From positions 1 to 39,996 of IMG/VR virus record IMGVR_UViG_3300025298_000065: a DNA stretch of 39,996 bases; one strand, 5' to 3'. Shown here piece after piece: positions 7,747-33,152 of this stretch; position 1 is the stretch's first letter; every line of letters starts with the position of its first letter. The position numbers and the translations under genes were made by a program. This DNA comes from a virus. Under the pieces are notes generated by a model, which saw nothing but the letters and a program-made list of their open reading frames with translations, had not been told where the DNA came from and made no database searches.

Positions 7747-9510
7747 ATGGGTTCGAATGATAAACTGAAAACCACCGTAGCGTTTGCACTAAAGACGCAA
7801 GTAAGCACCGACAACACCCGTCACGTTTTTGCATTCGTCCGGGCATACAAGTTCAAAAAACTGGTGTCCGAATTTAAGGTCTACGTTGCTGATGGCGATT
7901 CCCCTCTCCTACTGACCAAATCCCAATTGACCAAAAGTACCATCATCGACCACCCTAATTCAATCCGCCTGAACCAACTATTGGCAGGCATCACAGAAAC
8001 GATTAGGGCGACCGTGGACGAACTTTTAAAGAATGCCCATACATTGGAACCCGATATTGTTAGGACTGCTGTAAAGTCCTATACGAAGCGTTTCAATAGC
8101 GATTACCTTGCCTTCCTCAAAAGGGAAATTGTTACCATCACCAACGGCAACATTACCCGGTTTGATAGTCTACAGGTAGACAAAGACGTTCTTACCAAGA
8201 TTAAGAACAATCCCCCGTTGGACGAAACCGGGCAACCGGTTACGGGTGATGATATGGAAGACGTCTTGAACACCGAACAGGTAGAATATCAAAAGACCAT
8301 AGACGCACAGAAGATCAAGAAAATGAAAACCGAGGAAATCTATCGGTTGGGGCTTTGGAATAAGGCCAACATTTTCGAAATGTTTGCCAGCATCTACTTC
8401 GATCAATCTTGCCCGGCTACATATCAAAAAATTGTCCTGCGGTTGTTGGAGTACAGGGAGCACAAAAAGCCAAAGGAAGATGTTAAGCATCTAAACACAC
8501 AATGGCTGGTAGATTTCTTCAACTTCCTGAATGAAACGGGATTTTACGTTATCAACACCAGCAACCTAGACCCCCTTCGTTATGATCGGAAGATTTTCTT
8601 TCAAGATAAAAAAGAAGAGAACCCCAAGGAAAGAAAGCCATACGAACCAAAGTCACTGAATAAGATGATTGGAATTGTAAAAACCCTTATCGCTGGCAAA
8701 GACAAATTCACATTTTACAAAAAGGGTTACATTCCAAAACTTGATTTATCTGAATTGAACTTAGCTGCCATCACTGACAAAAAAGATGTTGACGGCACCA
8801 GAATAGAACACAACTTAGTGAAGAGCGAAGTTGACGAAATCTATCATTTCAAATTTACCAAGACTTCGTTAGACGAATATCAGGAGATATTCAACACCGT
8901 GAATAAATCCAAGAATGTCCCAATAACTATTGAAGATTTGGAAACAGCACGGCAACTGTTCATTCTTCAAATTTTCTTTGGTGGGTTACGTGGCTTCATT
9001 GAACTATCCACAGCCAAACTTTTGAAGCACGGCAAAGAACACGTGGTGACGTTTTACCAAAACAAGGTAACAAACACAGTGACCAATCCATTGAACGCCT
9101 ACACCGAGGCAATACTAAAACCATTGAATTACAAGATACCAGTATTGACCAGATACAACGCACAGGAAACCAAAAAACAGGTTACCAATATCAACTTGCT
9201 TGAAAGTCATTACAGATCATTGCTAAAAACCATTGGACACATTGTAAATCTTGACAGAGATGTTTTAACGGACAAAGTGAAGTTCCTTCATCAACCAATA
9301 AAAGAAATCTTCAACCCATACTTTAGCCGCAAGACATTCGGAACAATCTGTTTCTCGGACCTTGGTTTGAATGATTCCGAAATTTCCCTATTTACGGGGC
9401 ACAAAGACAGGAACAAAACAGAACTTAGTTCGTCATACATCCAAAAGGATACGATTAAGGATAAGAAGAAACTACTTGAGAAATTAAAGATAGGAAAGGC
9501 ACCCAAGTAA
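7747..9510 (+). CDS. int: Tyrosine-family site-specific integrase
   Basis: 587 residues. The C-terminal catalytic domain carries Arg415 (GGLRGFIELS), a likely Lys440 in the beta hairpin, Arg528 in YFSRKTFGT, His552 in TGHKDR and the nucleophile Tyr564 in SSYIQ. The histidine that usually precedes the second arginine (HxxR) is replaced, the motif reading YFSR. A long N-terminal part (1-390) would contain arm-binding and core-binding domains. It catalyses recombination between phage and bacterial attachment sites. The gene sits about 110 bases inside the tRNA-Ser scar, and the start at 7747 is the first ATG after the repeat sites. Confidence 0.9.
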   Translation: MGSNDKLKTTVAFALKTQVSTDNTRHVFAFVRAYKFKKLVSEFKVYVADGDSPLLLTKSQLTKSTIIDHPNSIRLNQLLAGITETIRATVDELLKNAHTLEPDIVRTAVKSYTKRFNSDYLAFLKREIVTITNGNITRFDSLQVDKDVLTKIKNNPPLDETGQPVTGDDMEDVLNTEQVEYQKTIDAQKIKKMKTEEIYRLGLWNKANIFEMFASIYFDQSCPATYQKIVLRLLEYREHKKPKEDVKHLNTQWLVDFFNFLNETGFYVINTSNLDPLRYDRKIFFQDKKEENPKERKPYEPKSLNKMIGIVKTLIAGKDKFTFYKKGYIPKLDLSELNLAAITDKKDVDGTRIEHNLVKSEVDEIYHFKFTKTSLDEYQEIFNTVNKSKNVPITIEDLETARQLFILQIFFGGLRGFIELSTAKLLKHGKEHVVTFYQNKVTNTVTNPLNAYTEAILKPLNYKIPVLTRYNAQETKKQVTNINLLESHYRSLLKTIGHIVNLDRDVLTDKVKFLHQPIKEIFNPYFSRKTFGTICFSDLGLNDSEISLFTGHKDRNKTELSSSYIQKDTIKDKKKLLEKLKIGKAPK

Positions 9511-19751: not shown

Positions 19752-22022
19752 TTATGCGACAGCACCAATAGAAGCACGTGATTCTAAAACATCAACATTT
19801 GTATTGGCATCCCGAACCTCAGTAACTGCCACATAAATCTTGGCAGATTCAACGGCTGCTTTTATGCTTTGAGCAGTCAAAGCGTTAACGCTGGTAACGT
19901 CTGGTGTGATTGGTGGCAATGCTTCCGAACTGAAACCACCAACTGCCATAGGTCTTGCAGTTCTAGCCATTTCCAAATGTTGAATCATTGAACCATAAAC
20001 CGGATTTTCTACCATCCATCTTGGTGCAACCCACTCATTGGCGTGTAACTGTACCGGTCCACCTGCACGGCGTTCACCAGTGCTGTCTGTAGCACCACCC
20101 GGACCAGTGAAACCATAAGGAGCACCACCAGAAGCAGCAACCAAAGGGATAGGTTCAGGCTTATTGGCAATGATGATACCGGTTTGAATCGCACCGAGTA
20201 CACCAGCAATGATGGATAATGGTATAACTGGCAATGCTTTCACCACGCCGAGTGCTGTATTGATTACAGATGATATGATTGCATTGGCATATTCAATTTG
20301 GTTCTGCTTGTTCTTGGATTTTATTTCCTCATTCTGCAACCTCCTACGATCATCACTTAATTTCTTTTGTGTCTGTTGCTCCTTTTGGATGCTGGCAATG
20401 AGTGCTTCACGTCTTGCCCCTTCCGCATCCGACAATTGCCCGGTTGCCGCTTGTTGTGTGGCAACAGATTCTTGGAATTGAGTGTTGATTATGTCTAAAC
20501 GTGTTTCGATGTTATCAATTTGACGATTGATGGCATCGGAAAACGCGGTTGTGATTTGGTTGAAGGCATCGAGAGCAGCAGTTGAATAGGTACTGATTGC
20601 TTCAATATCTTTCTTAAACTGTTCTTCCTTCTTTTTGGCGTCCTCTTTGTGCTGATCATCCAATTTCTTCAACCGTTCCTGTTCCTTCTGCACATCGAGG
20701 TCGCGGTATTTTTGTCTGATCGAAACAACATCTTTGTTGCGTTGCTCTTCAATCAACAGTGTTTGCTGTGTTATCTGTGCTTCGCTACCTTGAAGGGCCT
20801 CAATCTTGTTCTTGGTATCAAAATCGAGTTGCGCCAACTCTTGATCTTGTCTTTCTTTCAGGTTGGCAATACGCAATTGAGTAATGTTCTTTTCCGCTGC
20901 AATTTCAGCTTGGATACGTGCTCTTAGAATCTGCTCGATCTCACGGGCATAGGCATCCACTTCTGCCTTGATGGCTTTCATCTTGGCATCTTGAAGTTTC
21001 TTTAAATCATCCTGTTTTTTCTTGTTGGCATCCCTTTCAAGTTGATTACGTTTTTCATCTTGAGCATTGAGCACGTCAAATTGGTCACGGACGTTTTGCA
21101 ACTGCTTGCCATACTCTTGCAATTGTTTATTCAGTTCGTTTCGCTTGGCAATCTGGTCATCAAGACCAAAGTTCTCGTTGAACCCAAATATTCTATTTGA
21201 TTTCTGCTTGGTTTCTATCTCATCATTGAGGGTGTTGATACGTGCCTGATAAAGCAGAATGGATTTTTGAAGCAACTTCTGTTCTTCAACGAGCTGTTCA
21301 CGGTTCAATTGGGAAATTTCATCTTCCTTACCGCCTTGGATTCCAAGCAATTTTATCTTTTGCTCGATCTTGGCATTCTGATCGTCAAGTAATGCATTGG
21401 CAATTTTCAAATTGATTACCTGCTTATTGAAATATTCCTCTTGCTTGTCTCCTGCAATACCAATAGCCTCGGCAATCTGATCCCAATACGCAACTATGGT
21501 GCCTAGGGCGACTATGAATAATCCTATACCCGTTGCCGTTAGTGCCGCGCGAGTTGTCGAACCAAAAAGCTTGGCACCGAGGGCAGATTCCTTGAAGCCT
21601 TGTATGTATGCTGCAAATGCCTTACGGTTGCTGCTGGATAGCGCTTCCATAATCGGCTTGATACCGGATACCACAACGTTAAGAGACGAAGCAACTTGAA
21701 TAGCTTTCTGAATCTCTTTTTCGGTTTCGGCACCAAATGCCGACGCGGCCACGGTCGCGATACTGAACGATGCCGCGAGTGCGCCCCCGATCTTGGCAAC
21801 AGAATCTAGTTTCTTTTCGTCTGAAATATCTTTCAAACTGTCCTTAACATCATTCAGTGAACCATTGGCTTTCTTAGCCAAATCGGACATATCGGCAAAA
21901 GCCTGACTGTTCACATCGAGCGTTTTTAACTCTTTGTTGATGTCTTTGATGGTTGCATCTAAATCGTTAATGCTCTTCGCATTTTTTAATTGAATTTCTA
22001 ATTCAACACTTCTACTTGCCAT
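19752..22022 (-). CDS. Tail tape measure protein
   Basis: 756 residues. The N-terminal 80 residues form coiled coil typical of tape measures (SINDLDATIKDINKELKTL..., SLNDVKDSLKDI). Hydrophobic segments occur near 165-195 (ATGIGLFIVALGTIVAYWD) and 610-660 (IPLSIIAGVLGAIQTGIII). Between them lie long charged coiled coils rich in K, E and Q (KKKQDDLKKLQDAKMKAIKAE; EQERLKKLDDQHKEDAKKK). The protein sets tail length and is ejected with DNA. At 756 residues it predicts a tail of roughly 110 nm by the usual 1.5 angstrom per residue rule. Confidence 0.8.
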   Translation of the reverse strand: MASRSVELEIQLKNAKSINDLDATIKDINKELKTLDVNSQAFADMSDLAKKANGSLNDVKDSLKDISDEKKLDSVAKIGGALAASFSIATVAASAFGAETEKEIQKAIQVASSLNVVVSGIKPIMEALSSSNRKAFAAYIQGFKESALGAKLFGSTTRAALTATGIGLFIVALGTIVAYWDQIAEAIGIAGDKQEEYFNKQVINLKIANALLDDQNAKIEQKIKLLGIQGGKEDEISQLNREQLVEEQKLLQKSILLYQARINTLNDEIETKQKSNRIFGFNENFGLDDQIAKRNELNKQLQEYGKQLQNVRDQFDVLNAQDEKRNQLERDANKKKQDDLKKLQDAKMKAIKAEVDAYAREIEQILRARIQAEIAAEKNITQLRIANLKERQDQELAQLDFDTKNKIEALQGSEAQITQQTLLIEEQRNKDVVSIRQKYRDLDVQKEQERLKKLDDQHKEDAKKKEEQFKKDIEAISTYSTAALDAFNQITTAFSDAINRQIDNIETRLDIINTQFQESVATQQAATGQLSDAEGARREALIASIQKEQQTQKKLSDDRRRLQNEEIKSKNKQNQIEYANAIISSVINTALGVVKALPVIPLSIIAGVLGAIQTGIIIANKPEPIPLVAASGGAPYGFTGPGGATDSTGERRAGGPVQLHANEWVAPRWMVENPVYGSMIQHLEMARTARPMAVGGFSSEALPPITPDVTSVNALTAQSIKAAVESAKIYVAVTEVRDANTNVDVLESRASIGAVA

Positions 22023-26688: not shown

Positions 26689-27156
26689 TTATTTAATGAT
26701 AAACATACCAGCAAGTGAATCCGCAACCGCTTCCTCAAGGAAGTCACCCAAACTATTACTTGCATAGTCCGCAACAGTCTTTTCAACTTCATCCACATAG
26801 TTCTTGCCTTTAATTCCCTTCAGATAAATTGACTGTTGCATAGCAAATGCAAGTTGATTTGTTGTTTTGTTTGCTGATCTGACATTATTTTTCTTGATAA
26901 ATCTGATAAGGGCATCAATTGGGACTTTGCGGGGATTCCTCGGTTTTCTTCCTTTGCTGAGATATGAGTAATATTCATTCACGTACATATAAAGGGAATC
27001 GCGGGATTTCCCGTCTTCCCATTCAACCGACTTCACCAAATCAGAATTTTTATCAACTCCGTTCTTAATCAAAACTTGTTGAACGACAAGGTTCAATTCG
27101 TCTCGAAACTTTTTGCCTAAAGAGGAAAAGGGATTTTCGTTACGCTCCGTTGCCAT
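26689..27156 (-). CDS. Neck or tail-completion protein (gp10-like), putative
   Basis: 155 residues, basic and mostly helical, with VEWEDGKSRDSLYMYVNEYYSYLSKGRKPR and VDEVEKTVADYASNSLGDFLEEAV. Size, basic character and position resemble HK97 gp10-type head-tail connection proteins, but there is no decisive motif. Its ATG overlaps the stop of the preceding gene (TAATG). Confidence 0.45.
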   Translation of the reverse strand: MATERNENPFSSLGKKFRDELNLVVQQVLIKNGVDKNSDLVKSVEWEDGKSRDSLYMYVNEYYSYLSKGRKPRNPRKVPIDALIRFIKKNNVRSANKTTNQLAFAMQQSIYLKGIKGKNYVDEVEKTVADYASNSLGDFLEEAVADSLAGMFIIK

Positions 27157-27617
27157 TATTCGGGAATGTTAAATTGATCTTGGTAACCGGATTTGCAAAA
27201 TGCTCTAAACGTATCTCCCTGAATATCCAATCTTACACCTGATACATTGTCATCAGTTGAGTTACGCACAGATATACCGTTAACGCTAGTGATCCTAAAA
27301 CCCAACGGTTTCAAATCATCTTGCATTCGTGTTATGATGGCATCAGCTATGGTTTCCATATTTGAAATCTGCTGGTGATCGCCAACAACATCATCGAGGC
27401 TGGGATTGTTAAGCACCCACAGAGCGAATTGAACGGTTTTGAATCGGTTTGTCGCCAGTTCGTAATTGAAGGAATATGGTATCTCCAAATATGTCAGGGG
27501 ATATTCAACGCCCTTACCGGTTGCCATCTGGAAATCTTCCCCATAGTCGAACGTTTTTACATCGTTATGCTGTAAGCAGATGGTTTGAATCTGGTCCTTT
27601 AAATCTTGTAACGTCAT
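27156..27617 (-). CDS. Tail terminator or tail-completion protein, putative
   Basis: 153 residues with a beta-alpha pattern (VEYPLTYLEIPYSFNYELATNRFKTVQFALWVL; METIADAIITRMQDDLKPLGF; GVRLDIQGDTFRAFC) like small tail-completion proteins that cap the tail tube. The ATG overlaps the TGA of the frameshifted chaperone product (ATGA), and the stop overlaps the next ATG (TAATG). The gene therefore sits in a translationally coupled string of tail-assembly genes. Confidence 0.5.
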   Translation of the reverse strand: MTLQDLKDQIQTICLQHNDVKTFDYGEDFQMATGKGVEYPLTYLEIPYSFNYELATNRFKTVQFALWVLNNPSLDDVVGDHQQISNMETIADAIITRMQDDLKPLGFRITSVNGISVRNSTDDNVSGVRLDIQGDTFRAFCKSGYQDQFNIPE

Positions 27618-28434
27618 AACTTAAATAAGTATGACCTTGCGTTTAGGGATGCTATTTGCCTTGGGATTTTATGATTTTGTCCGTATGCTTTTTCAACCAG
27701 CTTTTGAACTTCTGAATCCAATTCTGCTTTTCTGTTTTTGAGGTTAAGCCAATGCAATACGATTTCCAACTTCTCCTTAAGAATCGAATGTATACGCGTA
27801 ATGTCGCCATCAGCAAGCGAGTAAATATGCCCCCACCAACTGGTTTCTTTCCCATATCTATTATATGCGTCATCGACTCCATCAACTGGTGATTTGACGC
27901 CTTTAGAAGATCGTGGTAATTGATTGAAAACAATCTTAAACTGTGCAAAAAAAAAGCATTCACTCTACTTGCTATGGAAATTGGCAATTCCAAAAAGTGG
28001 CTTGCACGTTCCTCAACATCAAAATCGGAAAGGCTTTCGCCATATTTTTTACACATAATGGCAACTACGTATGGTAGTGCTTTGTATGGTTGGGATTTAA
28101 AATTATCCTGAGTTGTTTGCAGGCTCACGTAGTCCTGAAATTCTCCTTTCAATAGGCTTTGAACAACATCGTATGTCTCTCCTTTGTATTCAAATTGTGC
28201 AATGGGGTCTGTCGGCAACGGCTCGCTGAAGAATGTCAGACGTTCAAGAATGGATTTCACGTCCTTTATATTCATCTTCTTTACTTCATCAAAAGGGATG
28301 TTGCAATATCCAGCAATGAAAGCAATTGATTTAAGGTCAGGATTTTCTTCTGAAAGCCTTTCAACTTCCATTTGTTGTCTTATAGTAATTTGGTCCCAAC
28401 TGGTGGGGATTGAAATATTCGAAAGTGTACCCAT
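27614..28434 (-). CDS. Tail assembly chaperone, -1 frameshift product
   Basis: Reading 162 codons from 28434 and slipping back one base on the nine-T run (27947-27955) gives a 273-residue protein. The new frame is open for 111 codons and looks like real protein: FAQFKIVFNQLP, DDAYNRYGKETSWWGHIYSLADG, ITRIHSILKEKLEIVLHWLN. WGHIYSLA.GD....D/I.....L..VL..L recalls the T part of G/GT-type chaperones. The frame stops at a TGA that overlaps the next gene's start (ATGA), a strong sign that this is the genuine 3' end. The N-terminal part is shared with the 260-residue frame-0 product. A homopolymer undercount of one T would give the same protein without slippage. Confidence 0.7.
27622..27631 (-). promoter_or_regulatory. 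Late motif copy 4 (TACTTATTTA)
   Basis: TACTTATTTA on the minus strand, four bases before the ATG at 27617. It also lies inside the last codons of the frameshifted chaperone frame, so it is the copy most likely to be coincidental. Confidence 0.35.
27652..28434 (-). CDS. Tail assembly chaperone, frame-0 product
   Basis: 260 residues without frameshift. Residues 1-162 (SWDQITIRQQMEVERLSEENPD; FFSEPLPTDPIAQFEYKGETYDV; LPYVVAIMCKKYGE) have the look of the N-terminal tail assembly chaperone domain that binds the tape measure. The 98 residues after the T run are strongly basic (RLLMATLRVYIRFLRRSWKS, KKHTDKIIKSQGK) and less protein-like than the alternative frame, so they may be an incidental open frame. 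The start follows a late-motif copy by six bases. The gene is separated from the large terminase by three opposite-strand genes. Confidence 0.6.
   Translation of the reverse strand: MGTLSNISIPTSWDQITIRQQMEVERLSEENPDLKSIAFIAGYCNIPFDEVKKMNIKDVKSILERLTFFSEPLPTDPIAQFEYKGETYDVVQSLLKGEFQDYVSLQTTQDNFKSQPYKALPYVVAIMCKKYGESLSDFDVEERASHFLELPISIASRVNAFFLHSLRLFSINYHDLLKASNHQLMESMTHIIDMGKKPVGGGIFTRLLMATLRVYIRFLRRSWKSYCIGLTSKTEKQNWIQKFKSWLKKHTDKIIKSQGK
27947..27957 (-). other. Slippery run for -1 frameshifting
   Basis: Minus strand GC followed by nine Ts and GC. In frame 0 it reads GCT TTT TTT TTG, so T TTT TTT allows tandem -1 slippage. The -1 frame continues for 111 codons to a TGA coupled to the next gene. 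Confidence 0.65.
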
Positions 28435-28491: not shown

Positions 28492-28998
28492 ATGACAGTT
28501 GACCAAATTATCGCATTGATTCAGGGATTAGGCACCCTCGCCATAGCAGCGTTTATACTCTTCCAAAACAAGATTCTCAACACCCAAATCACAAACCAGA
28601 ACCAAATGATTTCAAACTTGAAATCATTCCAAGAAATCATTGACATTAAAAAGGTTAGGGAATATGTTGACTTAAGGGAAGAAACCCACCAAGAAAAAGT
28701 AAAGCTAATGAAGAGTGAATTTGAAAAGACCTTGGAAAGCGAACTCAAAAAATCAAAAGATGAAGCCGAGAAAACAAAACAGTTCTATACAGAAACAACT
28801 TTGGCATTAAGCCGCCTACTCGTTAACCTAGATGAAAAAGAGCGACTTAAGTTTATGACTGCCAATTTAAAATCAAACTACTCCATTTATCAAAAATTGG
28901 TAACCATAATGACCAAAATTGACAACATCAAAATAAGCAAAATTGAGTTTATAGATTACGACAAACTGTTGAGTAACTATCAAAACAAACCGGAATAA
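28492..28998 (+). CDS. Membrane-anchored coiled-coil protein (moron)
   Basis: 168 residues. A membrane helix near the N-terminus (IIALIQGLGTLAIAAFILFQ, about residues 5-24) is followed by a long charged coiled coil (MISNLKSFQEIIDIKKVREY; KVKLMKSEFEKTLESELKKSKDEAEKTKQ) and a small C-terminal helical part. Topology suggests anchoring in the inner membrane with the coiled coil in the cytoplasm. It is on the strand opposite to the flanking late genes and has its own promoter-like element. A role in superinfection exclusion or defence is inference from position; no family is recognised. Confidence 0.65.
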   Translation: MTVDQIIALIQGLGTLAIAAFILFQNKILNTQITNQNQMISNLKSFQEIIDIKKVREYVDLREETHQEKVKLMKSEFEKTLESELKKSKDEAEKTKQFYTETTLALSRLLVNLDEKERLKFMTANLKSNYSIYQKLVTIMTKIDNIKISKIEFIDYDKLLSNYQNKPE

Positions 28999-29014
28999 AA
29001 ACTAAGCAAACAAA

Positions 29015-29036
29015 TTTGCTATCTTGGGCTGTCAAA
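29015..29036 (+). promoter_or_regulatory. Upstream element shared by two moron genes (copy 2)
   Basis: TTTGCTATCTTGGG followed by CTGTCAAA, 13-34 bases before the ATG at 29049. It matches the element before the gene at 28492 in 19 of 22 positions. Confidence 0.45.
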
Positions 29037-29048
29037 ACGATATGAGCT

Positions 29049-29660
29049 ATGACGAAAAATGAAATTGAAAATGCATTTGCCATTTTCGCGATGGGTGGTG
29101 ATCTGGTACTGGCAGGGCACGGACTTCCACCAGCATTTAGCGGACTTCAGGGGATAGTCAAAATGGTGTTCTCAACACGAGAAGCATTCTTAGAGGAAAA
29201 ATTAGTTGCATTCTTTGAAGCTGCTGGCAAAATTCCCACAGAAGAGCGAGACAAACTATTGAAGGAACTCGCAAAAGACAACCCAAAGTTTGGCGCATCA
29301 CTTCTAATCATTGTAGATCGGACAGAGAATGTGAGGAAAGCAACGTTGTTAGGGAAACTCTTCGGGGCAACTTTGAACGGAAGAATCACAACCAAGCAAT
29401 TTGAACGGTTTGCCAGTATGATTGAAAAGACTTTTTCCGAAAACTTGGAATATCTTATCAACGTAGGCAGTACACACATAGTTGGCGGTCCCGACTCAAT
29501 AGCAGCAAACCCGGACATTAACTACCAACTAGCTAGTGTTGGACTTATGAAATACCTTCTATTACCTCCCCCGACTTTTGCACAAGACGATGCAGTTATT
29601 GAAGCAAGATATGAGGTAACGGAGGCTGGTAGTATCATCGCTTCAATATGTAGTGAATAA
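29049..29660 (+). CDS. Soluble moron protein of an uncharacterised family
   Basis: 203 residues without membrane segments. The central part (TREAFLEEKLVAFFEAAGKIPTEERDKLLKEL; KFGASLLIIVDRTENVRKATLLGKLFGATLNGRITTKQFERFASMIE) has a pattern I have seen in many uncharacterised bacterial proteins, with KFG..LL.I.DR....KA..LGKLF.A...G.I, but I cannot name the family. It has its own promoter-like element and is followed six bases later by a membrane-anchored moron, so the two are probably co-expressed and may act together. Confidence 0.65.
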   Translation: MTKNEIENAFAIFAMGGDLVLAGHGLPPAFSGLQGIVKMVFSTREAFLEEKLVAFFEAAGKIPTEERDKLLKELAKDNPKFGASLLIIVDRTENVRKATLLGKLFGATLNGRITTKQFERFASMIEKTFSENLEYLINVGSTHIVGGPDSIAANPDINYQLASVGLMKYLLLPPPTFAQDDAVIEARYEVTEAGSIIASICSE

Positions 29661-29666
29661 ATATAT

Positions 29667-30299
29667 ATGAAAGAAGGAATACACCCAACCATAATAGCAG
29701 CATTGATTTCGTTTATGGCACTCTGCTTAGTTGTACCGTTGACAAATCACCTGAGAGAAAAGAAAAAGGAAAAAACAAGATTGAAGGCTGAATTGATCGC
29801 TCGCCTGCGGAATTTTTTTTCCGTAAGAAATGAAGCAACATTGTATTTCAACCTAAACCTCTTCAAGAACAAAGTTTTAGAGATGCTAGATGATGACCTA
29901 AAAAAAATCAAAGCATTAGCCGAAAAACATAAAGACAAAGAACCTATCGATGGGTTGGTGGCAAAGCACAAAGAATTTAGCGATGACGTGTATTCAACAA
30001 CGACAAAATTAACAGAACTATACAGGATGCAAGAAAAGGCAAAGTCGGAGTTACATTCGATTCTTTCACAATGTTCTTCCCATTTCCCTGCAAGAAAATT
30101 CTTACCTATCGAAACTTCAATAAAATACTACCTCAACACCTCCTATCAAAAAGCAGAACTACCCCAACTAGTGGAGGACGAAAACAGAGAGGATTTCAAA
30201 ACGGAATTTACAATTATGGGTAACCGAATTGATGCTGTAATCTTGCTGAGTGCAACCGAGGGTACGAAAATTCTTAACGAAATAGAATCTAAGTTGTGA
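29667..30299 (+). CDS. Membrane-anchored helical protein (moron)
   Basis: 210 residues. An N-terminal membrane helix (TIIAALISFMALCLVVPL, about residues 8-25) is followed by the basic stretch REKKKEKTRLKAELIARL and a helical domain of about 170 residues. The layout matches the two paralogous proteins upstream of the large terminase (membrane helix, basic LKKRRLREI-like stretch, helical domain of similar length), so it may be a distant relative. It starts six bases after the preceding gene and its stop faces the stop of the large terminase nine bases away. Confidence 0.65.
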   Translation: MKEGIHPTIIAALISFMALCLVVPLTNHLREKKKEKTRLKAELIARLRNFFSVRNEATLYFNLNLFKNKVLEMLDDDLKKIKALAEKHKDKEPIDGLVAKHKEFSDDVYSTTTKLTELYRMQEKAKSELHSILSQCSSHFPARKFLPIETSIKYYLNTSYQKAELPQLVEDENREDFKTEFTIMGNRIDAVILLSATEGTKILNEIESKL

Positions 30300-30308
30300 A
30301 ATATCGCC

Positions 30309-31751
30309 CTATATATACCAACGGAGTGTTCCCCGATTGGAAAGTAACTGATTAACTGTATAAACCAACGTATCAACTATCCCATCGTGCTTTGCCATAG
30401 GGAACGTAGATACTTGTTCTAGGAATCCATCATTCCAATTTCCCCTAACCAGTTTCACACGTCCCGGTTCCAGTATTGGAGTTATGGCGGTGGTTCGAGA
30501 AACTTTAGAATCTTTCGGTGCTGGCAGTTCCAATACATTCAACAACGTTTCTCGTTTCAAGCTGGCAACAACGTCTTTACCATTGGACTTGGGTTCTATG
30601 TAAACTTTACCCTTAGCATCGGCAACTTTCTGAATCAGGCGCAAGAGGTCCGGAAATTCCAACCAGACTTCAATACAATCCTTTATAAAAACCTGATTTT
30701 CTTTAGTACCCGCGATAAGTATGGTGGTTGGATCATTGTTCTTAACATCGGTGGTTTGGGCAGTGTCAATGAACAAATGATAGGGAATATCATTAGGACA
30801 AGCGTCAACAAACTTAAACCAATCCTTTTTAAGTATGCCCCCACCGATTGGAGAGGGTTTCATTAGATATTGGCAGGCGAATACATAATCTGAACCAGTG
30901 AGGTCTGGGAAACTGTCCACGGGGAACCGGCTGTTCCACAGCACCCCGTTCTTATAGTTAACAGCCAATTCCTTTGGCTCAACATCCGTGGTTAGTTCAA
31001 TTGGGAGAACGATGTTCTTATACTTATTTCGACCATCATTTGCACGCAAGTAACCGCTTAAGTCATTCTCGTGAACACGTTGACCAATGATTACCCTTAA
31101 ATCAATGCTTGGGTTGTTAAGCCTGTTGTAAATCGTTTCTCGATATTTACGGTTGGCGTTCTCAAGATTGATTTCAGAAACGTTGTTTGCGTCAATGCTG
31201 TCATCGATCACAATCACATTTGCACCAAAGCCCGTGATGCTGGCACCCATAGAAGTTGAGACACGAGCACCACCAAACGTATTTTTGAAATTGGATTTGG
31301 CTTGGGTGTCTTGTCTGATTTGGATGTTGGGGAATAGTTCTCTATACCAATCCGATTCTAAAAGGTCCTTAGTCTTGGATGCCAGTTCCACGGCCAACCC
31401 TTCACTGTGGGAAATCATCAGGAACGACATATAGGGATTTATACAACCCCACGTCCAAGCATTAAGGCAGACAGAAACAATAAGACTTTTTGAAGTTCTT
31501 GGTGGAACGTTTATGTTTAAATCTTGGGTCTTGGGCTTCTTATCGGTGATCCGTATGATTTCCCTTTGTAACTCGCTGGTTATATAGTCGTGGTGCCAAT
31601 TCCAATCCCAAGTATTGGAGGGTTCCAGCACCTTTGCCGCGTCTTGAACGAAATCAAAAAATGATGCCTTGTATAGTTGTCGGTATAGTTCTAATTGTGT
31701 CTGCTTGGAAAGGGCTTCACGATTAGCTTTAAGTTTTTCTTTAGTTGTCAA
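30309..31751 (-). CDS. terL: Terminase large subunit
   Basis: 480 residues. The ATPase domain has WNWHHDYITSEL, a Walker A-like NVPPRTSKS (residues 81-89), SFLMISHSEGLA, and Walker B VIVIDD (179-184). The nuclease domain has FIDTAQTTDVKNNDPTT (Asp329) and a C-terminal KHDGIVDTLVYTVNQL with further acidic residues. It packages phage DNA into the head. The only in-frame start is TTG at 31751; an ATG eight bases upstream reads ATG GAT TTT TGA and would be in frame with one more T. A late-motif copy lies about 40 bases upstream, inside the divergent moron gene. Confidence 0.9.
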   Translation of the reverse strand: MTTKEKLKANREALSKQTQLELYRQLYKASFFDFVQDAAKVLEPSNTWDWNWHHDYITSELQREIIRITDKKPKTQDLNINVPPRTSKSLIVSVCLNAWTWGCINPYMSFLMISHSEGLAVELASKTKDLLESDWYRELFPNIQIRQDTQAKSNFKNTFGGARVSTSMGASITGFGANVIVIDDSIDANNVSEINLENANRKYRETIYNRLNNPSIDLRVIIGQRVHENDLSGYLRANDGRNKYKNIVLPIELTTDVEPKELAVNYKNGVLWNSRFPVDSFPDLTGSDYVFACQYLMKPSPIGGGILKKDWFKFVDACPNDIPYHLFIDTAQTTDVKNNDPTTILIAGTKENQVFIKDCIEVWLEFPDLLRLIQKVADAKGKVYIEPKSNGKDVVASLKRETLLNVLELPAPKDSKVSRTTAITPILEPGRVKLVRGNWNDGFLEQVSTFPMAKHDGIVDTLVYTVNQLLSNRGTLRWYI

Positions 31752-31787
31752 AAATCCATATCTTCAAAAAATAAATGTTATCGCTAT

Positions 31788-32477
31788 ATGTATATAAGTA
31801 CCATTCTACTGATTGAGTCACCAGCACCAACTATAGTGGCACCCGAAAACTCAAGTTGGTTCACACCACCAGTAATAGCGGCGTTAGTTTCTTCTGGAAT
31901 CGCGGCACTTTTAGGTGGTTTTGTGGGAGCTTACTTGAAGGAATATTATTCAGAAACCTTTTTGAAAAAGAGACGATTGAGGGAAATCCGGGTTGCCATC
32001 AATTTAAATGCTGCTGCATTGTTCAGGGCAGTCAGACCCTACTTAACGAATGGCAACGTTGCCAAATTTTTCAAAACACTGATGGACATTGTTGAACCAG
32101 ACGATACAGAAGAGTCTATTGTAGCAAATAAACTTGCATTCGGCGAACCACTTGTCAAATTACAACCAACTGTGGATGCCCAATACAAAATCTTGAGTGA
32201 CTACGAATCACAATTGATTTCACTTGCATATGAATGTGAGGCATATTTGCCACTCAAAGACTACCAACAATTGGTAAAATTCATCAAACAGATTACTAAC
32301 CTAACGAAACGAGACTTTTATGCACTCGATTATCGCGGTATGACTAGAGATCAAGTGTTAAGAGAGTTTGAAAGTAAGAGTGAATCAGCCGTTGTAAAAA
32401 AAATAGAGGAACTAGATAAGGAGTATGATAAAGTTGCCGAACAAATCAACAACATCCTGAAAGTCAAAAAGAAATAA
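31788..32477 (+). CDS. Membrane-anchored helical protein, moron paralogue A
   Basis: 229 residues from the ATG at 31788; the start is fixed by alignment with paralogue B, which shares ILL near the start. Residues 29-50 form a glycine-rich membrane helix (VIAALVSSGIAALLGGFVGAYL), followed by KEYYSETFLKKRRLREI (51-67) and a helical domain with SDYESQLISLAYECEAYLPLKDY. The glycine pattern suggests helix packing, perhaps oligomers. The gene diverges from the large terminase and its first codons overlap a late-motif copy on the other strand. Function unknown; exclusion or defence is inferred. Confidence 0.7.
   Translation: MYISTILLIESPAPTIVAPENSSWFTPPVIAALVSSGIAALLGGFVGAYLKEYYSETFLKKRRLREIRVAINLNAAALFRAVRPYLTNGNVAKFFKTLMDIVEPDDTEESIVANKLAFGEPLVKLQPTVDAQYKILSDYESQLISLAYECEAYLPLKDYQQLVKFIKQITNLTKRDFYALDYRGMTRDQVLREFESKSESAVVKKIEELDKEYDKVAEQINNILKVKKK
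31791..31800 (-). promoter_or_regulatory. Late motif copy 6 (TACTTATATA)
   Basis: TACTTATATA preceded by GG on the minus strand, 39 bases before the terminase start. It lies within codons 2-5 of the divergent moron gene, so late transcription would begin inside that gene. Confidence 0.45.
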
Positions 32478-32504
32478 GACCTTCGATTTCAAAACATTTC
32501 ATAT

Positions 32505-33152
32505 ATGATTCTGCTAGCAGAGCTAACAAATTCGCAATCCACATCAGTCATATTTACATCACCAGTACTAGGTGCCCTTGTTGGTGCCATACTTGGTGGA
32601 CTGATCGCGTCCTACCTGAAGGAATTTTTTGGAGATGTTTACCACAAAAAAAGACGACTTAGGGAAATCATTACCGAGATGACCAGAAGCATAGGGTTGT
32701 TTGACCACGACTATCAAATGTATTGCAGGGAATCAAATCACCTCAAACTACACGTGGCGTTGTCTAAGACAATCTCGATCAGTCCTTCACTCCGAGACCG
32801 AGTACCCGAACTAAGGAAACAACACGAACAAAATGCATTGGCATTGGAACCGGGAACCGAATCGTTTTTTCAAAAGGCAACAACACATTGGGCAACTATC
32901 ACAGCATTGTCATACGAAACTCAACACTACATCAACTCCAAAAAATATAAGAAACTCAGGAAAGTACACGATGCATTTTTCGAAAGGGTAAAAGCAAACA
33001 CCGAAGTTAGTGCGGTAAAAGAAATGGACTATGCAACCCTGCTAACATATCTCCACACCGATTTCGGGAACGCTATAGATAAGTTAAATGAAATAATCAC
33101 CAATACATCAGAACATTTCATTCGAGATATAAACAACCTCCTTAAAAGTTAA
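32505..33152 (+). CDS. Membrane-anchored helical protein, moron paralogue B
   Basis: 215 residues. Membrane helix at 19-38 (SPVLGALVGAILGGLIASYL), then KEFFGDVYHKKRRLREI (39-55), nearly the same as paralogue A (KEYYSETFLKKRRLREI). The rest is a helical domain with WATITALSYETQHYINSKKYKKLRK, matching the LISLAYECEAYLPLKDYQQL region of A in pattern. It follows A by 27 bases and they probably share a transcript. Conserved anchor and diverged helical domain suggest different specificities on a common scaffold. Confidence 0.7.
   Translation: MILLAELTNSQSTSVIFTSPVLGALVGAILGGLIASYLKEFFGDVYHKKRRLREIITEMTRSIGLFDHDYQMYCRESNHLKLHVALSKTISISPSLRDRVPELRKQHEQNALALEPGTESFFQKATTHWATITALSYETQHYINSKKYKKLRKVHDAFFERVKANTEVSAVKEMDYATLLTYLHTDFGNAIDKLNEIITNTSEHFIRDINNLLKS

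Follow-up and report, generated by a model that had tools for sequence, protein, structure and literature searches.

The 39,996 nucleotides analysed here (positions 1 to 39,996 of the IMG/VR record IMGVR_UViG_3300025298_000065, hereafter the window) carry a gene which we read, with considerable confidence, as a phage tail assembly chaperone made in two forms by slippage on a run of nine T's (T9). Normal reading would yield a short form of 260 residues, composed of an N-terminal domain and a tail that is basic and helical. A slip on the run would shift a fraction of the reading into the −1 frame and give a long form of 273 residues, whose C-terminal domain would recruit the tail tube protein to the tape measure protein, as in the lambda GT protein. 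The ratio of the short to the long form would matter for the assembly of the tail. Within this phage's clade the short form would have gained a long and conserved tail, whose overlap with the −1 domain is nearly complete. From the evidence given below we infer that both proteins are produced, that they function as chaperones and bind a client, and that the ratio of the two products is set in this way.

The gene lies on the minus strand. Frame 0 (28434-27652) is an intact open reading frame (ORF) with an ATG start and codes for the G-like product of 260 residues plus stop, namely the shared N-domain (residues 1-162) and a basic helical tail of 98 residues; frame-0 homologues are found in L013, L114 and other relatives. 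The T9 run, read as GCT TTT TTT TTG, occupies positions 27947-27955 (A9 on the plus strand). It is exactly nine T's long on the coding strand, and no longer homopolymer occurs in the window. The preliminary description had located GC-T9-GC at 27947-27957. The motif is present, but this span covers only part of it, as the flanking GC pairs are at 27956-27957 and 27945-27946. In the zero-frame phase the run includes the two heptamers U_UUU_UUU and U_UUU_UUG, that is, GC[T TTT TTT] and [T TTT TTG]. A slip to −1 opens about 111 codons past the run, the T-like C-terminal domain (27614-27955), which has homologous −1 tails in relatives. This frame ends with a TGA at 27616-27614, which overlaps the start codon of the following gene (ATG at 27617). 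N-domain and −1 C-domain together make up the fused GT-like product, which thus spans 27614-28434 with 273 residues, and about 97 codons (27652-27946) are open in both frames. Direct reading finds the 260-residue gene with its nine-T slippery run and the −1 frame of 111 codons with its overlapping stop just as they were first described.

When contigs of viruses and of genomes were scanned with a single protein, no relatives emerged, and a tblastn search of phages with the chaperone had no match. Relatives of the terminase were an uninformative route since they belong to other structural modules. The route that led to relatives went from the prohead protease gene to Nonlabens phage P12024L (NC_018272, L004) and from there to a two-sequence chaperone profile. 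This profile detected nine viral contigs, L013 with T9 and the marine group L014-L021 with T10. A much larger number of homologues came from profiles run over the genomes of three orders, those of Chryseolinea serpens (G001), of a Sphingobacteriales/Chitinophagaceae-like genome (G002) and of a Tenacibaculum genome (G010), and L114 came from the family of G001. The fused protein of the window is about 33% identical to that of L013. In P12024L, gp40 lies directly after the terminase and has its own T9, and past the run the −1 frame encodes a similar C-terminal motif, which lies beyond the stop of frame 0. gp40 and gp41 (NC_018272, 23946-24640) are annotated as two hypothetical proteins and are probably one recoded gene. 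The family of gp40, phrog_32199, is of unknown function, covers the short product only and records no frameshift. It is matched by gp40 (E 7e-124) and by the marine group (E 1e-10), both homologous to the window gene; the window protein itself stays below the match level for this family.

A run of T6 to T10 is present in all out-of-frame lineages found, a divergent set that includes P12024L, viral contigs and prophages of three Bacteroidota orders. At the same codon, 17 of the 20 representative out-of-frame lineages have T9, and T10, T7 (L048) and T6G (L090) are found once each. Homologues which carry both domains in a single ORF align straight across the junction, mostly with residues like LHHF, VVWF or LMFY instead of FFF, and only one in 30 has a run of at least seven T's there. 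For runs of at least seven T's the comparison (19/20 out-of-frame against 1/30 single-ORF) gives P ~1e-11, to be read with caution, since independence of the lineages is incomplete and we grouped them into 20 by our own judgement. Because the single-ORF homologues do without FFF and without the run, the protein does not demand FFF and the run is under selection as a nucleotide sequence. And because they carry both domains in one frame across the junction, the fused protein is, as far as sequence comparison goes, real. The layout proposed in the preliminary description for a −1 slip is thus borne out: the −1 frame holds a conserved C-domain which is fused in frame in other homologues, and the run is conserved.

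In our view T9 very likely serves as a functional genetic switch and does not stem from an error in sequencing. Homopolymers are error-prone, and the preliminary description had considered that the run might be an undercounted T10, in which case the −1 frame would be the plain gene; the relative L098 indeed has T10 with its C-domain in frame. But T9 with the same out-of-frame layout recurs in the isolated phage P12024L and in many independent genomes, the marine T10 group L014-L021 still has its C-domain in the −1 frame, and both frames are constrained (see below), so that we reject an undercount for the family and hold it to be very improbable in the window. L098 itself (T10 at position 1995 of the reverse-complemented locus, C-domain in frame 0, only 13 codons in −1) either has the arrangement reversed, so that slippage would yield the short form, or carries a T9 that was counted wrongly. 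The probability that an indel has broken a fused single-ORF chaperone in a decaying prophage is smaller still. Single-ORF homologues do exist, but the same break is found at the same codon in about 20 lineages under purifying constraint, and the remaining structural genes of the window look intact.

Two groups of close relatives allowed us to compare synonymous positions. At conserved residues the codon identity is 0.77-0.97 in the frame overlap, and outside the overlap it is, in the more divergent pairs, 0.47-0.74 before and 0.54-0.70 after. Synonymous conservation in the overlap exceeds that in the flanks with Fisher P values from 0.0003 to 0.02 in four of five pairs and 0.14 in the fifth. 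The synonymous-site constraint that one would look for across relatives in both frames is thus present in both groups, and because synonymous change is suppressed in the overlap both products look real at the level of sequence. Between the window and L013 the synonymous comparison is saturated (27/64 in the N-part), and we therefore used shuffle tests: the −1 protein was kept fixed, its synonymous codons were reshuffled and the openness of frame 0 was scored. The 97 open codons of the frame-0 tail in the window are unexpected under this null (P 0.0018 with one codon-usage table and 0.0003 with another), as are the frame-0 tails of L013 (P 0.0013) and L114 (P 0.02). None of the remaining lineages has a P value below 0.05. 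Over 86 aligned positions the frame-0 tails of the window and L013 share 21 identities and the −1 tails 17; with the −1 proteins taken as given, the frame-0 tails are more alike than the null predicts (P 0.0075). The long dual-coded stretch is thus, on two or three sequences, a feature of this phage's clade. The early claim of about 100 dual-coding codons holds for this phage and its nearest relatives but not for most relatives, whose frame-0 tails have only 12-68 residues.

It is possible, though in our view unlikely, that the long tail in frame 0 is read out without having a function and only the −1 product matters, the short form requiring nothing but its N-domain. Such a read-out would fit with tail lengths which, in the relatives, range between 12 and 100 codons and with a frame-0 openness which is not significant in 22 of 24 lineages. 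It fits less well with the openness in the window and in L013 (P ~0.001 each), with frame-0 residues conserved above the null and with the helices that AlphaFold predicts in the frame-0 tail (predicted local distance difference test score, pLDDT, ~61-79). Being conserved with the nearest relative and predicted helical, this tail also does not deserve its first rating as the less protein-like of the two.

As to the machine that slips, we slightly favour RNA polymerase stuttering on T9 over the ribosome, and both could act. T9 is maintained whichever of the three codon phases it stands in, and exactly nine T's are found in 17 of 20 lineages even where seven or eight would suffice. A purely ribosomal slip would proceed with tandem tRNA-Phe on U_UUU_UUN as in phage P2, the extra T's only adding tandem sites. 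This competes with the polymerase part of our proposal only, and we give it a chance not far below even. The ribosome could make the slip because every lineage has a canonical U_UUU_UUN heptamer, irrespective of phase. Moreover, the shorter T7 run exists in L048, and the GC-rich L090 has T6 at position 2043 of the reverse-complemented locus, reading exactly U_UUU_UUG and followed by a strong downstream structure (z −4.5). L090 is likely the ribosomal counterpart of the T9 genes. In the T9 lineages, by contrast, there is no consistent downstream structure or Shine-Dalgarno-like element, and most T9 members have no stimulator of either kind. With pseudoknot-free folds modelled, the z values after T9 are −1.0 and −0.04 in the window and about −2 to −3 in a few members. 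Shine-Dalgarno sequences commonly stimulate shifts by the ribosome. Here internal stimulation of this kind is unlikely because such sequences are not recognised by Bacteroidia ribosomes (PMC9976891). The lambda and HK97-like chaperones studied experimentally use the ribosome (PMC5009743, PMC3711429). Nine is a recognised length for slippage; from nine onwards A/T runs are avoided in the genes of many genomes. The situation resembles that of dnaX, in which nine A's act through RNA polymerase in Thermus, whereas in E. coli the shift is left to the ribosome (PMC1088944). Taken as a whole, the picture of a family which uses polymerase slippage on T9, has ribosomal T6G and T7 sisters and includes one clade with two separately functional tails of about 100 codons is a tentative one.

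What does the gene code for? AlphaFold models the frame-0 product with a mean pLDDT of 85.7, the N-domain being mostly above 90, and the −1 domain as a small helical domain with helices at pLDDT ~84-90 over residues 41-90. The only phage chaperone in the PDB matched by the N-domain is that of HK97 (2ob9; Z 5.0, root-mean-square deviation 3.6, 80 of 107 residues, 11% identity). Among predicted viral structures its matches are mostly unnamed, but two are named tail assembly chaperone, one of them a BFVD model with E 2e-3 and probability 1.00. The −1 domain is found in BFVD largely as separate small ORFs, and this suggests that annotation commonly misses the fusion. A fold search with the −1 domain gave nothing notable in the PDB, and one with the frame-0 tail gave generic helical matches only. 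There is also a weak match to the 'tail protein' family phrog_166 (E 7e-4). Weak Pfam matches and PDB sequence matches to protein-A-fused capsid chains were dropped as helical or compositional noise, as was an NCBIfam nickel-transporter match far below its own cutoff.

The gene neighbourhood is that of a late operon. The terminase large subunit (30309-31751, minus strand; phrog_38, E 2e-73) is encoded upstream of the chaperone gene, and a terminase is likewise close upstream in L004, L048, L050 and L114. The fifth gene downstream (19752-22022, minus strand) codes for a tape measure protein (phrog_24676, E 7e-4) which is similar to proteins of Polaribacter and Cellulophaga phages that bear this annotation and is likely the client of the chaperone. 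The next gene (27156-27617, minus strand, 153 residues) has no Pfam match; judged by eye, one like it comes after the chaperone gene in L004, L013, L014, L050, L113 and L114. It may encode a tail terminator or connector.

Because of this gene context, the weak HK97 fold match and the G/GT-like layout, a tail assembly chaperone is the best reading of the gene, and it probably works like a G/GT chaperone whatever its membership by sequence. The preliminary description had named it a tail chaperone with −1 recoding; fold, context and layout agree with this name, and no family model confirms it. Several observations weigh against the overall proposal. The match to the Pfam family Phage_TAC_7 (PF10109) is below threshold (15.3 bits, cutoff 25). 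The HK97 fold match is weak and unrelated helical proteins score in the same range. The gene stands after the terminase and not beside the tape measure gene; a lambda-type chaperone is usually, though not by definition, encoded directly upstream of the latter. As to the polymerase part in particular, both the members with T6G or T7 and the presence of U_UUU_UUN throughout speak for the ribosome, and early stops in the +1 frame, whose enrichment would be expected to matter if the polymerase also drops a base, show nothing beyond the amino-acid context.

Among known systems, E/E' of phage P2 belongs to the Phage_TAC family and slips on T6G. Common to both are the U-run slippery site, which in L090 is exactly U_UUU_UUG, and the sub-threshold PF10109 match; in contrast, T9 dominates here and the position relative to the tape measure gene is another one. 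In phage lambda the slippery site is GGGAAAG instead of T9. Unlike lambda G/GT, the gene described here follows the terminase at a distance of five genes from the tape measure gene, is dual coding over about 100 codons and has no detected sequence relation to G/GT. With the two products as predicted here, the systems share the common N-domain, the −1 shift, the C-domain restricted to the long form and the late-gene setting (PMC5009743). The HK97 chaperone is weakly alike in part of the N-domain fold but is shorter (107 residues in the chain) and has other neighbours. Thermus dnaX with its A9 and Shigella mxiE resemble our gene in having a nine-base homopolymer within the gene, a product from two frames and, in our gene presumably, no need for a stimulator (PMC1088944, PMC5009743). 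They differ in that ours is a tail gene whose slippage is predicted from sequence.

The window reads as a prophage of a presumed Bacteroidota host, because a bacterial gene at its left end is 92% identical to a Chryseolinea serpens gene and because an integrase-like protein of 587 residues is encoded at 7747-9510. The best PHROG match of the latter is no better than E 0.02. Within the late operon, moron-like ORFs on the plus strand surround the terminase gene (28492-30299 and 31695-33152), three of them lying between it and the chaperone gene. Two of the set, at 31695 and 32505, look like paralogues, with an N-terminal membrane helix and the motif KKRRLREI. PADLOC matches of these ORFs are weak only.

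Tail chaperones with a −1 shift have long been known (PMC5009743), and for HK97-like chaperones frameshift efficiencies of 6-7% have been measured (PMC3711429). Among the open-access papers searched we found none on T-run or transcriptional slippage in tail chaperones nor on members from Bacteroidota phages. To that extent the family, its T9 signature, the mixed evolution of T9, T6G, T7 and single-ORF genes and the long dual coding are new.

The family provides a recognisable tail-chaperone gene for Bacteroidota phages in place of the unknown proteins, divided at the run, that stand in the catalogues, and it offers a target at the bench for tail assembly beyond the model phages. The dual-coded stretch is an uncommon case in which the separate functions of two frames can be tested. 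If the slip is indeed made by the polymerase, a tail chaperone would be controlled at the level of transcription and, with sister genes relying on the ribosome, would allow a natural comparison of the kind known from dnaX.
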